Made by a program: the position numbers and the translations under genes. Below are positions 6,235-25,829 of a stretch of DNA of 25,829 nt, in pieces. The notes below the pieces were generated by a model that was not told where the DNA came from, ran no database searches, and saw nothing but the letters and a program-made list of their open reading frames with translations. Positions within the stretch are counted from its first letter, which is position 1. Every line of letters begins with the position of its first letter. The stretch is from a virus: the IMG/VR virus record IMGVR_UViG_3300010413_000148, positions 1 through 25,829 of that record, one strand, 5' to 3'.

Positions 6235-6238
6235 GGCT

Positions 6239-6706
6239 CTATGGCTCCAGTAGAAAAGTTAAAGGATCAGGATCATTTACGCCAAGGGTTTGCGAGTCGT
6301 TACGCCATCCTTTGTTGCCCTGGCCTGCGGGAATCGATCCGTTGAATTGCATGTCTTGCGGCGTGGCGGCGTCTTCGAGTAATCGCAGATATGCCATGTG
6401 AGCGGTTCGCATGATTTCGGGCGGGGCATTTTTACCGAATAATGGGCAAAGCCTCTGGGCAAGGCTGTTATAAATCGCTTCGTGGGCCTCATCGGGGCAA
6501 TTGCTATCCTGGTCAAGATCACTGTCAAGCGGGTTGTTTGGCAACGGATAGCCCAGTAGAATGCCGCGCTTGTTCCAGGCCGCCATCATCGCGTCAAGCT
6601 GGCGCAGTGCGCTGGCATACTGCTCGGCGCTCATCTCAAAAGACCAGGACGCTAGCCCGATCAATTCCATGGCCTGTTCAATGTATTGTCTTTTTGTCCA
6701 GCTCAT
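6239..6706 (-). CDS. P22 gp4-like tail accessory factor (head completion)
   Basis: 155 residues versus about 166 in P22 gp4. The pattern of the family is visible: an N-terminal helix KRQYIEQAMELIGLAS, then SALRQLDAMMAAWNKRGILLGY (residues about 31-52), a loop with PDEAHEAIYNSLAQRLCPLFG (about 71-91), and a short Gly-rich tail SIPAGQGNKGW (about 124-134). In P22, twelve copies of gp4 bind beneath the portal ring after packaging and make the platform for gp10. The gene starts inside the 3' end of the preceding gene (overlap of about 29 bases), which suggests coupled translation. The position after coat and before gp10 agrees with the P22 order. Confidence 0.85.
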   Translation of the reverse strand: MSWTKRQYIEQAMELIGLASWSFEMSAEQYASALRQLDAMMAAWNKRGILLGYPLPNNPLDSDLDQDSNCPDEAHEAIYNSLAQRLCPLFGKNAPPEIMRTAHMAYLRLLEDAATPQDMQFNGSIPAGQGNKGWRNDSQTLGVNDPDPLTFLLEP

Positions 6707-22593: not shown

Positions 22594-23644
22594 GGATTTG
22601 ATTGTCATCGCAAAAGAGGCGCTGAGAGAGTTAAAGGAAGCTGATTATCAATTTTTCCACGGATACAGCCCGGAATCGGCGATTAAGGGTGCCGAGCTGA
22701 TATTCCGCGAAAACAAAGGGTTTCCGCGATGCACTGATGCATCGAAATATAAAGCTTTGCTCGACATGTTTATTCAAGGTCTGAACCCCCTCAAAAAACA
22801 GTGTTATTTTATTCCATACCGCGATGAGCTGTTGCTTCTGCGGGATTACTCCGGCGATATCATGGTTGCAAAGCGCTCCGATGTGAGAATCATGGATATC
22901 CGGGCTGAGGTGGTGCGCGAGGGGGATCTGTTTGATTGGGAGGTCGTCAATGGGTTGAAGGTAATCAGGCGGCATAAGCCCACCTGGGATAGCCTCAACG
23001 GTAAAATCATAGGAACATATGCGGTGGCGGTAGATTATGATGACAAACCGCTCCACGTTGATTTGATGTCCTATAATGACTATCTAAATACCCTAAGAAA
23101 AACGAATCTAAAAATAAACGGCGAACCTGTAGTACGGCAGGACGGCAGCATTCACCCCAGCAGCAACCACGCGAAATATCCTGAGCGCATGGTTCGAAAA
23201 ACTGTAATTCATCGGTTGTGCAGGGGCATAATTAAAGCAAGTCCGAATGAAAAGCTTCAGGAATCATTCGATAACACGCCAGAGGACAAGATCGAAATCA
23301 TGGAAGCCCAGGTCCGAGAATCAATGGCATCGGTGCCGATGGATTTCCCGGAAGAACAAGTGCATGAAATCCAGCATATTCAAGCACAAGAGGCGGACCC
23401 GCCCTGCAGTGTCGAACAGCGCCGCCGAATCGTAGAACTGGAAACAGCGGCAAATCGTGAAAAAGATGCCAGCATTGAAAATATTAGCCGCTTTTTTACC
23501 CGACAAATAGAATCAACCCGTGATCTCTCCGAAAAAGAAGCGGAACAATATATCGAAGCATTGCTAACCTGGGATGACAAATTTGGGCCGGATCCGGGAG
23601 CGGACGAAAAAATCGATCCGCCGGTGTGGGGGGCGGACCTATGA
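22586..23644 (+). CDS. recT: RecT-family single-strand annealing recombinase
   Basis: 352 residues, ATG at 22586 overlapping the HAD gene. Family marks: GLNPLKKQCYFIPYRDEL (about residues 66-83), a RRHKPTWDSLNGKIIGTYAV segment (about 128-147), and KYPERMVRKTVIHRLCR (about 198-214), a basic DNA-binding helix. The last 130 residues are acidic and helical (SVEQRRRIVELE... to EKEAEQYIEALLTWDDKFG), which in this family contacts partner proteins. RecT pairs complementary strands during phage recombination and replication. A partner exonuclease of the RecE or lambda-Exo type is not seen in the window; the SMC-like ATPase may take that place. Confidence 0.87.
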   Translation: MGKDLIVIAKEALRELKEADYQFFHGYSPESAIKGAELIFRENKGFPRCTDASKYKALLDMFIQGLNPLKKQCYFIPYRDELLLLRDYSGDIMVAKRSDVRIMDIRAEVVREGDLFDWEVVNGLKVIRRHKPTWDSLNGKIIGTYAVAVDYDDKPLHVDLMSYNDYLNTLRKTNLKINGEPVVRQDGSIHPSSNHAKYPERMVRKTVIHRLCRGIIKASPNEKLQESFDNTPEDKIEIMEAQVRESMASVPMDFPEEQVHEIQHIQAQEADPPCSVEQRRRIVELETAANREKDASIENISRFFTRQIESTRDLSEKEAEQYIEALLTWDDKFGPDPGADEKIDPPVWGADL

Positions 23645-24171
23645 TACAAATCGAAATTGAAGGGAATCCAACAATTGATATCGGCGAAGATTATCTCGAA
23701 TCATTGATTTTGGCTTGGAGGGGATTGGTCGATCAAATATTTAAGAATAAAAATGTAACACCGTTTTGTTTCGTTATTTGCGACAACTATAAAAATCAAA
23801 ACGGCGCTTTTGTTTTACCATTTATCTTCGGAGATAATGAAGAAAAAAATAAATTAAAATCATATATTTATGGCATGTGTAAATTATATAATGCCAAATT
23901 TATATTGTTCACGGCTGATATGTGGGTCGCGCGAAGTAATGACCCGGAATACATGCAGAAAAAGCGCCCCTCAGAAGATCCTGATCGAATTGAGGCAGTC
24001 TGCGCGGTAATCATGTCGCCGGATGGATACACAAATATGCTGTCGCTTAAATATGAACGAATTGATAACGAGATAAAATTAGATTCGTCCGCGAGGTGGA
24101 TGGAAGATTCTGGAATGAGACGTGGATTTTTCATTCCGCCATGGGAGCCGACAGAAGAGGTTATGCAATGA
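23641..24171 (+). CDS. Hypothetical protein (176 aa)
   Basis: 176 residues; the start at 23641 has GGGCGG upstream and overlaps the recT stop as ATGA (the frame could begin five codons earlier). It begins IQIEIEGNPTIDIGEDYLES, continues with a helix and a strand FCFVICDNY, a helix with YNAKFILFTADMWVA, and ends in FFIPPWEPTEEV. It reads like an alpha/beta protein with a Asp/Glu-rich surface, but I do not recognise it. Its stop overlaps the next start (ATGA). Function unknown, probably part of the early DNA set. Confidence 0.6.
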   Translation: MIQIEIEGNPTIDIGEDYLESLILAWRGLVDQIFKNKNVTPFCFVICDNYKNQNGAFVLPFIFGDNEEKNKLKSYIYGMCKLYNAKFILFTADMWVARSNDPEYMQKKRPSEDPDRIEAVCAVIMSPDGYTNMLSLKYERIDNEIKLDSSARWMEDSGMRRGFFIPPWEPTEEVMQ

Positions 24172-24524
24172 TAAAATTAACTGAAAAACCAATATGTTTT
24201 AATGATGGACCATCAGCGTATTGGGGGCATTTATATCTTGGCCAATATTCGAACGGCGCTATCGCGATCGTTGCCGGTGATCGTGGGCAGGTAGGAAAAT
24301 TAAGCGTTAATTTGGTTACACTGGCCGACCAACTCGCCGAGAACGAATTTTATGTAAAATTGTATGGCGAGGGACTATATATGAACGATCCCTGCATGGA
24401 ATCCGGCCTATTCGAAGTTGCCGGGCCTGAATTTGTGCTGGGGCCTCATGATGCTCCGTTTCAGAAATGGAAAATCAAGGATGAAGTTTGGCAAAAAATT
24501 CTATCTGAGATCGAGGACGAATAA
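24168..24524 (+). CDS. Hypothetical protein (118 aa)
   Basis: 118 residues; the ATG at 24168 has GAGG seven bases upstream and overlaps the stop of the gene before. The sequence is mixed alpha/beta with a Gly-rich loop (IVAGDRGQVGKLS) and a C-terminal helix DEVWQKILSEIEDE. It looks like a small beta-barrel protein. It is the last gene of the rightward early operon, and its stop (TAA at 24522-24524) lies on the T-run of the CRISPR transcript terminator read from the other strand. Function unknown. Confidence 0.6.
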   Translation: MIKLTEKPICFNDGPSAYWGHLYLGQYSNGAIAIVAGDRGQVGKLSVNLVTLADQLAENEFYVKLYGEGLYMNDPCMESGLFEVAGPEFVLGPHDAPFQKWKIKDEVWQKILSEIEDE

Positions 24525-24562
24525 AAAAACGCCCCTGGTTCCATTGCGGAAACCAGGGGCGT
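24522..24562 (-). terminator. Intrinsic terminator of the CRISPR transcript
   Basis: ACGCCCCTGGTT (24529-24540) pairs perfectly with AACCAGGGGCGT (24551-24562). On the minus strand seven T follow at 24528-24522. It faces the leftward CRISPR transcript; there is no U-run for rightward transcripts, so the early operon can read through antisense to the array. Confidence 0.8.
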
Positions 24563-24613
24563 CTGCCCGGCCAGCTCATTGGTTTGTTTGAACCGGGCAA
24601 ATCCGGTGGTTCG

Positions 24614-24703
24614 CGGTTCATCCCCACGCATGTGGGGAACACTTTTGGGGTCAACCAGGGTTCTCCTACAGTCACGGTTCATCCCCACGCATGTGGGGAA
24701 CGC
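24614..24703 (-). CRISPR. Type I-E-like mini-array: two repeats, one spacer
   Basis: Two 29-base repeats, 24614-24642 and 24675-24703, differ at one base near one end (ACAC versus ACGC). They begin CGGTTCATCCCCACGCATG on the plus strand and end GTGGGGAAC plus two bases. They flank one 32-base spacer, 24643-24674. Repeat and spacer lengths (29 + 32) and sequence are those of type I-E; read on the minus strand the repeat ends ATGAACCG, the usual crRNA 5' handle, and has a CCCCAC/GTGGGG stem. There are no cas genes in the window. The minus orientation fits a candidate promoter to the right and a terminator to the left. A further spacer-like segment lies between repeat one and the terminator. The array is therefore likely to be expressed and used by host Cascade. 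Confidence 0.9.
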
Positions 24704-24764
24704 TCTTCATGGGGAAGCCCGGCAGGGAGCGCCGGGGGTTCGGATGGCCTATCCTATTCCCATG

Positions 24765-24793
24765 ATTTGACGTGCCGAAAAAATAGGTGTAAA
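24765..24793 (-). promoter_or_regulatory. Candidate promoter of the CRISPR mini-array
   Basis: On the minus strand TTTACA (24793-24788) and TCAAAT (24770-24765) are 17 bases apart, which would place transcription start about 55 bases before the first repeat. The leader between them carries a CCCGGC/GCCGGG hairpin (24718-24723 with 24731-24736). Confidence 0.5.
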
Positions 24794-24819
24794 AAGGTTG
24801 CAGTTCATTCACAATCAAA

Positions 24820-24867
24820 CAAAAACGAATGCCCTGGCTCAACTTTGGAGGTTGCCGGGGCATCGTT
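24820..24867 (-). terminator. Leftward intrinsic terminator upstream of the array promoter
   Basis: AACG plus ATGCCCTGGC (24824-24838) pairs with GCCGGGGCAT plus CGTT (24854-24867), with one bulge and one G-U-type pair. The T-run is in the leftward direction. It would shield the array from transcripts coming from the replication gene side. Confidence 0.55.
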
Positions 24868-24874
24868 TAACTGA

Positions 24875-24999: not shown

Positions 25000-25829
25000 A
25001 TGCCATACAATCCCTTAAAAGATGAAATATTTTTACCAATTCCATTAAAAATAGCTCAAAGATCTGATTTATCTTCATTATCAAAGCTTGTATATGGCTA
25101 TCTTCTAAAATGTTTCGGCAATGACGGACAAATACAAATTAAAGCCGCGACTATTGCAAATGATCTCAAGAGACCGAGACAAAAAATCTCAGAATCCATA
25201 TCAGAATTAAATTCAAAAAAATTAATTGAAACTTTCCGCACTGGAAAAGCAAGCCGCTATGAATTTTTACCGATTCCTGTTGTCACCCCTGCCGTGACAT
25301 CTGTTGTCACCCCTGCCGTGACATCTGTTGTCACCCCTGCCGTGACATCGCCTTTATTAAAAGAAAATAAAAAAAGAATTTTTAAAAAATCGGTCCAGCT
25401 CCCCGAAATCCAAATAAAACCAGTCGCCGAATCCGCAAAGGCTGCGCCCGACTTTTTGAAAAAAATAGAATTATGGAATTCGATTCCGATTGAAATCCGC
25501 CGCAAATTGAATAAAAAACAGATTCTAACCGGAAGTATTGAAAAGATTGAATATTCTATTGAACGTATGATCGTTGCGATGACATCCGGCGGAAATGCGA
25601 TAGCGGCGTTCCAGAACGCATTTAAAGGCGATCATGCCAAATTAACCCGGAAAATGGAGGAAATAGAAATGAAAAAAAACAGAGAACATACTAAAGATAT
25701 TGATATTTTATTTAAAAAAGCACGTGACCGTCAAAATATCAAATTTCAACCCACCGACGCTGAAATATCAAAATTTGTAAAGGAATTCAGATCGGTTATG
25801 TCACCGATGTATGACAATCATTCCGACTC
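25000..25829 (+). CDS. Second replication initiator-like protein, 5' part
   Basis: ATG at 25000 with GAAAGG six bases upstream; the frame stays open to the window edge (about 276 residues seen). Residues about 20-85 look like a winged helix (LSSLSKLVYGYLLKCFGNDGQIQIKAATIANDLKRPRQKISESISEL). Then come three copies of VVTPAVTS (residues about 93-116), encoded by the 24-bp iterons, and a Lys-rich stretch, then a helical C-terminal half (LWNSIPIEIRRKLNKKQ...). The layout is the same as the gene at 17305-18321: DNA-binding head, repeat-bearing hinge, helical tail. That is the lambda O layout. No strong homologue is claimed. The low G+C and many Lys codons match the early region. Confidence 0.65.
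   Translation, partial: MPYNPLKDEIFLPIPLKIAQRSDLSSLSKLVYGYLLKCFGNDGQIQIKAATIANDLKRPRQKISESISELNSKKLIETFRTGKASRYEFLPIPVVTPAVTSVVTPAVTSVVTPAVTSPLLKENKKRIFKKSVQLPEIQIKPVAESAKAAPDFLKKIELWNSIPIEIRRKLNKKQILTGSIEKIEYSIERMIVAMTSGGNAIAAFQNAFKGDHAKLTRKMEEIEMKKNREHTKDIDILFKKARDRQNIKFQPTDAEISKFVKEFRSVMSPMYDNHSD
25277..25348 (+). repeat. Three 24-bp dyad iterons (origin candidate)
   Basis: Three exact tandem copies of 24 bases (25277-25300, 25301-25324, 25325-25348). Each has a perfect dyad TGTCAC, seven bases, GTGACA. They code for VVTPAVTS three times. Confidence 0.92.
25349..25393 (+). other. AT-rich stretch beside iterons (possible unwinding element)
   Basis: This 45-base stretch right after the third iteron is almost all A and T, with runs of A. 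In lambda ori an AT-rich part follows the O iterons and melts first. By analogy this could be the unwinding element. Confidence 0.5.

Follow-up and report, generated by a model that had tools for sequence, protein, structure and literature searches.

Cas-free mini-CRISPR arrays are known from archaeal viruses and from phages. In the archaeal viruses SPV1 and SPV2, arrays of one or two spacers, provided with promoter-bearing, host-like leaders and with reciprocal targets, have been proposed to use the Cas proteins of the host against rival viruses (PMC6858448). In phage mini-arrays, the spacers are reported to be directed against adjacent genes of close relatives and spare the carrier, and an origin by recombination has been argued for these arrays (PMC6858448). 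The leaderless mini-arrays of phages and prophages, as summarized from a survey cited in two papers (PMC6858448, PMC11656645), are intergenic and consist of one spacer between two host-type repeats, with neither leader nor cas genes. The direct experimental support that we found for the function of mini-arrays comes from archaeal viruses (PMC6858448, PMC11656645). Viral repeats are also described as RNA anti-CRISPRs (Racr), in which a phage intergenic mimic of the host repeat is potentially bound and cut by Cas6; the definition of the solitary repeat unit drops repeats clustered within 100 bp (PMC10651486). Type I-E Racr candidates are active in P. aeruginosa, and a non-targeting canonical crRNA also reduced interference in the published I-F assay (PMC10651486), which makes every mini-array with high expression a potential decoy.

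Here, we analyze a type I-E array found in a P22-like phage fragment of 25,829 bases, an IMG/VR virus record that is referred to below, at its full length, as the window. The element is a leaderless phage-borne mini-CRISPR array, an additional member of this known class, and its repeats, its expression signals, its possible targets and its counterparts in other viruses are considered in the following sections.

The Phage Fragment and Its Gene Surroundings

Portal, scaffold, coat, head-closure and terminase proteins of P22-like type are encoded on the minus strand of the window, an incomplete contig, and the plus strand has genes for an SbcC-like ATPase and for RecT as well as a replication-like gene; both the structural genes (portal, coat, scaffold, terminase) and the IMG/VR record place the array in a viral genome. 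The nearest named relatives of the portal (56–66% identity) are found in two phage genomes from Manatee Spring, both of them circular. The best relatives found through RecT have 40% identity and do not carry the repeats, and the neighboring gene at 23626–24171, used to look for close relatives, led to none. The array is located in an intergenic gap of 475 nt, between the end (24524) of a hypothetical gene and the start (25000) of the replication-like gene. The left neighbor (24168..24524, plus strand), convergent with the array, has no family match; the right one (25000..25829, plus strand), a probable replication gene continuing past the contig end, shows a weak HTH match and internal 24-bp iteron-like repeats. 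The latter, three perfect tandem copies with TGTCAC-N7-GTGACA (25277–25349), resemble the origin iterons found within genes of the lambda-O type.

No cas genes were recognized among the main ORFs scanned in this incomplete 25.8-kb fragment, in agreement with the initial annotation, which had reported none near the array. The cas genes of its own that mark a complete phage CRISPR-Cas of the ICP1 type were likewise not found in these ORFs.

Repeats, Spacer and Predicted crRNA

Two 29-base type I-E repeats and one 32-base spacer had been read in the minus strand, and they were found exactly at the positions given. The leader-side repeat R1 (GCGTTCCCCACATGCGTGGGGATGAACCG, 24675..24703) and the distal repeat R2 (GTGTTCCCCACATGCGTGGGGATGAACCG, 24614..24642), an exact consensus, enclose the 32-nt spacer (TGACTGTAGGAGAACCCTGGTTGACCCCAAAA, 24643..24674) in the canonical 61-nt register. 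The two repeats differ by a single base, a substitution at position 2 of R1, which is located in the 5′ part lost on processing; the stems and the 8-nt handles are intact in both copies. On the basis of the known cleavage by Cas6e, the predicted mature crRNA (61 nt, 24622..24682, minus strand) would consist of the 8-nt 5′ handle AUGAACCG derived from R1, the 32-nt spacer and a 21-nt 3′ hairpin handle derived from R2.

The segment 24582–24613 was considered as a second spacer and was rejected, as it had no match in the search of the collected loci and is not followed by a third repeat. Rfam gave no match. On both strands, mechanical ORFs running over the repeats (24461–24874) yield peptides of the PTHVGN and PHMRGDEP types, which are a recognized source of false gene calls at I-E repeats.

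Expression Signals and Leader

Directly downstream of the array, an intrinsic terminator (24527..24564, minus strand) with a 16-bp stem and a T tract (–28.7 kcal/mol) bears out, as a pattern, the strong terminator of the initial annotation. Of the other signals assigned to this strand, the two upstream hairpins were recovered as structures. The more distant one (24823..24868, –19.2 kcal/mol), described as a second terminator, combines a long loop with a T tract that is interrupted, and was not called by the consensus scan; this candidate could, if real, insulate the array from leftward readthrough. The second, strong hairpin (24707..24765, –25.3 kcal/mol), ahead of R1 in the predicted transcript, is present as proposed, but it is not a canonical I-E leader: neither a GGTRGA motif nor an IHF-like site was found upstream of R1, in a region of 57% G+C. 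In the hosts, the leaders of arrays with the window repeat have in common a GGTAGA-type motif together with a stretch rich in A and T that adjoins the first repeat. The absence of an I-E leader makes normal spacer adaptation unlikely and recombination more plausible.

The proposed promoter was not sustained by the analysis. The best sigma-70-like pair of the minus strand, TTTACA-17-TCAAAT (24765..24793), agrees with the consensus at 9 of 12 positions, a score equaled in 30% of shuffled sequences, and the consensus promoter scan called none on this strand. The suggested agreement in orientation holds for the repeats and the terminator and does not extend to a recognizable promoter. The entire predicted transcript folds more stably than shuffled sequences (z –3.8), in part owing to the terminator and the hairpins of the repeats.

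The Repeat in Cellular Arrays and the Search for a Host

The 29-mer of R2 occurs exactly in 33 genome stretches, mostly within long CRISPR arrays with 32-nt spacers, and for this reason the repeats of the window are not attributable to chance. The titles of these records name, among others, Desulfobacterales, Syntrophales, Nitrospirales, Giesbergeria, Chromobacterium, other Proteobacteria and one Methanoculleus MAG. In both loci that were checked, the 29-mer adjoins cas6e and cas1e, together with cas2e in one (L034) and cas5e in the other (L011). Judged from this identity and from these surroundings, the 29-mer is a genuine type I-E repeat, and the array of the window thus repeats a cellular CRISPR sequence exactly in R2 and with one substitution in R1.

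A comparison of the repeat with host arrays had been suggested in the initial annotation; it succeeded as far as chromosomal I-E arrays are concerned, while the search for the phage's own host gave no informative match. The 813 spacers of arrays with the window repeat did not match the phage beyond chance. Furthermore, no near relative of the portal was found in 27 repeat-bearing genomes and in 794 further ones (399 from a single order, 395 from a single phylum), the portals of the searched genomes being remote (≤31% identity).

Searches for the Spacer Target

In the pattern searches for protospacers, the wobble positions of type I-E (6, 12 and 18) were left free. No match over 23 nt was obtained in about 85,000 species genomes and none over 20 nt in viral contigs, where the exact scan was negative as well; blastn against named phages and plasmids returned only matches of 17 nt or weak ones. 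The 48 related phage records contained no target at up to three mismatches and also did not contain the repeat or the array. The fuzzy search of the collected loci performed no better than shuffled controls, and the six-frame peptide search gave nothing above chance. Of the spacer and the segment 24582–24613, for both of which the initial annotation had suggested a search, neither gave a target, and no related virus or mobile element with a target emerged from any collection scanned. The same species genomes bear on the possibility, named there as contrary evidence, that the same array resides at a bacterial locus beside cas genes: tested through the spacer, no such case was detected.

A single contig (L192) matched the 3′ half of the spacer, and this half-match had first appeared codon-aligned with a protein reading. 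It was rejected as a target and ascribed to chance because 11 of 12 seed-side bases differ; chance alone is expected to give a hit of this kind.

Known matches are lacking for most spacers, whatever their origin, and for this reason the missing target argues neither for nor against a function of the array as a guide.

Comparable Arrays in Other Viruses

When viral contigs were scanned by pattern for pairs of I-E repeats 28–38 nt apart, 24 stretches were returned, some of which are long, leader-bearing arrays. Leaderless I-E arrays of two or three repeats were found in about 10 viral lineages (L160/L175/L178, L161, L162, L163, L168, L169, L172, L176, L182 and L183).

One of these, L168, is a leaderless array of two repeats and one 32-nt spacer, without cas genes, in a T7-like contig; it has the scaffold gene on one side and, on the other, a dCMP deaminase gene, itself located ahead of the coat gene. 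Within this dCMP deaminase gene of its own contig, about 310 nt downstream, 31 of 32 bases agree with the spacer (array at 6578–6667 and self-match at 6237–6268, minus strand), and the 5′ flank of this self-match is ACG and not AAG. The array resembles, in these sequence features, a guide against a close relative combined with self-avoidance: its target would be a close relative carrying AAG and the exact sequence. This pattern fits the phage mini-arrays reported to target relatives and not the carrier (PMC6858448). It also distinguishes L168, with its self-match and poor PAM, from the array of the window, for which target evidence of this kind is missing. When the spacers of other phages' mini-arrays were compared with named phages, the only match was a self match of the Klebsiella phage KP13-16.

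This phage (OP617741, L038) carries, in an intergenic region, a nearly identical 29-nt repeat. Unlike the window, its cluster has kept the chromosomal leader motif GGTAGATTTT and its later repeats are degenerate. The cluster (L038:2945–3155, OP617741.1 at about 19.3–19.5 kb) adjoins a tRNA cluster and bears no annotated feature.

Solitary copies of the window repeat were found in two viral contigs (L003 and L004); in L004 (2430–2480), the hairpin is lengthened by flanking CGGCC/GGCCG, making it a candidate solitary repeat unit. In a third contig (L002:8577–9239), two separate mini-arrays share the core of the window repeat, with 34-nt spacers at a period of 63 nt in one of them and a 32-nt spacer in the other, and each is preceded by one copy of a gene segment that is duplicated. 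The two-repeat I-E array of L161 (7990–8165) has GATATGCGAATCGAYAG on either side, and these flanking copies of GATATGCGAATCGAYAG, as a sequence pattern, are suggestive of an insertion by duplication.

Relation to Known Systems and Possible Function

The array of the window shares with the leaderless phage and prophage mini-arrays, as far as the survey is summarized in the two papers citing it (PMC6858448, PMC11656645), one spacer between two repeats of a cellular CRISPR type, an intergenic location and the lack of both cas genes and leader. It differs from the arrays described there in that no target of its spacer was detected and in its strong dedicated terminator, a feature that we also observed in L169. 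With SPV1 and SPV2 it has in common the viral location, the small number of spacers and the absence of cas genes, but these archaeal viruses, whose hosts belong to a different domain, have leaders and reciprocal targets, whereas the window array shows neither the GGTRGA motif nor the IHF-like site of an I-E leader and gave no target. Like Racr, it is a phage intergenic mimic of a cellular repeat that Cas6 might bind and cleave; unlike Racr, it has two repeats and a spacer of exactly 32 nt. A solitary repeat unit had been one of the options of the initial annotation, and this option was discarded, since the second repeat is only 61 nt away and the array falls outside the definition (PMC10651486); even so, it could act like an RNA anti-CRISPR.

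We favor, with a probability of about 0.52, the reading of the array as a leaderless phage-borne type I-E guide cassette that would use the Cas proteins of the host. The minus strand would be transcribed up to the terminator at 24564–24527, and the host Cas6e would cleave both repeats, releasing one canonical 61-nt crRNA; once loaded onto the host Cascade, this could direct Cas3 to a rival phage, or to another mobile element, bearing the protospacer; this would be a type of superinfection exclusion. Recombination with a host array is the probable source of the spacer, as there is no leader for adaptation by Cas1-Cas2. This reading is supported by the consensus repeat, the intact stems and handles, the 61-nt spacing, the dedicated terminator, the intergenic site and the lack of recognized cas genes and, at the level of sequence comparison, it appears to gain from the 29-mer shared with chromosomal I-E arrays, from the recurrence of leaderless arrays in unrelated viral contigs and from the pattern of L168. 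Counted against it are the protospacer that was not found, the null host searches, a promoter no better than shuffled sequences and the absence of the array from 48 relatives.

The next most likely reading, which we hold as tentative and on the whole somewhat unlikely, is that of an RNA anti-CRISPR acting by titration: the RNAs of the array, namely a crRNA with a matchless spacer and a leader-R1 fragment holding Cas6e at its 3′ end, would keep Cas6e, Cas7 and Cascade occupied; the crRNAs of the host would then fail to be loaded, and the phage would be protected from host CRISPR. The activity of I-E Racr candidates in P. aeruginosa (PMC10651486), the solitary copies of the window repeat in two other viral contigs and the failure to find a target in the collections scanned are all in keeping with such a decoy, although a missing target is weak evidence when most spacers are matchless. 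The preserved 61-nt register favors the guide, since a decoy can do without a second repeat and without an exact spacer length; titration also requires strong expression, of which the promoter scan gives no sign, and no acr gene was recognized beside the array in a search run without a dedicated Acr library. That a single transcript of one terminator-bounded cassette serves both purposes, with a full crRNA guiding against a rival and the structured leader-R1 fragment and a trailing fragment tying up host Cas proteins, seems to us improbable. An inert relic, that is, a repeat-spacer-repeat block taken up through recombination with a host array but devoid of present function, is likewise doubtful: the array is missing from the related records, its leader is absent, it has no clear promoter, R1 carries a substitution and a clearly decaying phage mini-array is known in KP13-16, but the only change affects a part lost on processing, the stems and handles of the two copies are undamaged and a strong, correctly oriented terminator ends the cassette in a clean intergenic gap. 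Finally, the source being an IMG/VR virus contig, a fragment of a bacterial array could have been misassembled into it; this is hardly credible for an internal block of only 90 nt flanked by phage-like early genes (RecT on the left, the replication-like gene on the right), similar two-repeat blocks being found inside many other phage contigs.

Concluding Remarks

The nearest decisive evidence is in the sister case L168 and not in the array of the window: L168 is a concrete, testable mini-array of a bacterial phage, whose spacer would fit a near-identical relative and spare the carrier. If the dual use considered above were true, the phage of the window would both hijack and dampen the type I-E system of its host. 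With this array, a P22-like environmental phage joins those viruses in which a probable CRISPR guide cassette occurs without any cas genes, and leaderless two-repeat I-E cassettes of this kind recur across unrelated phages.
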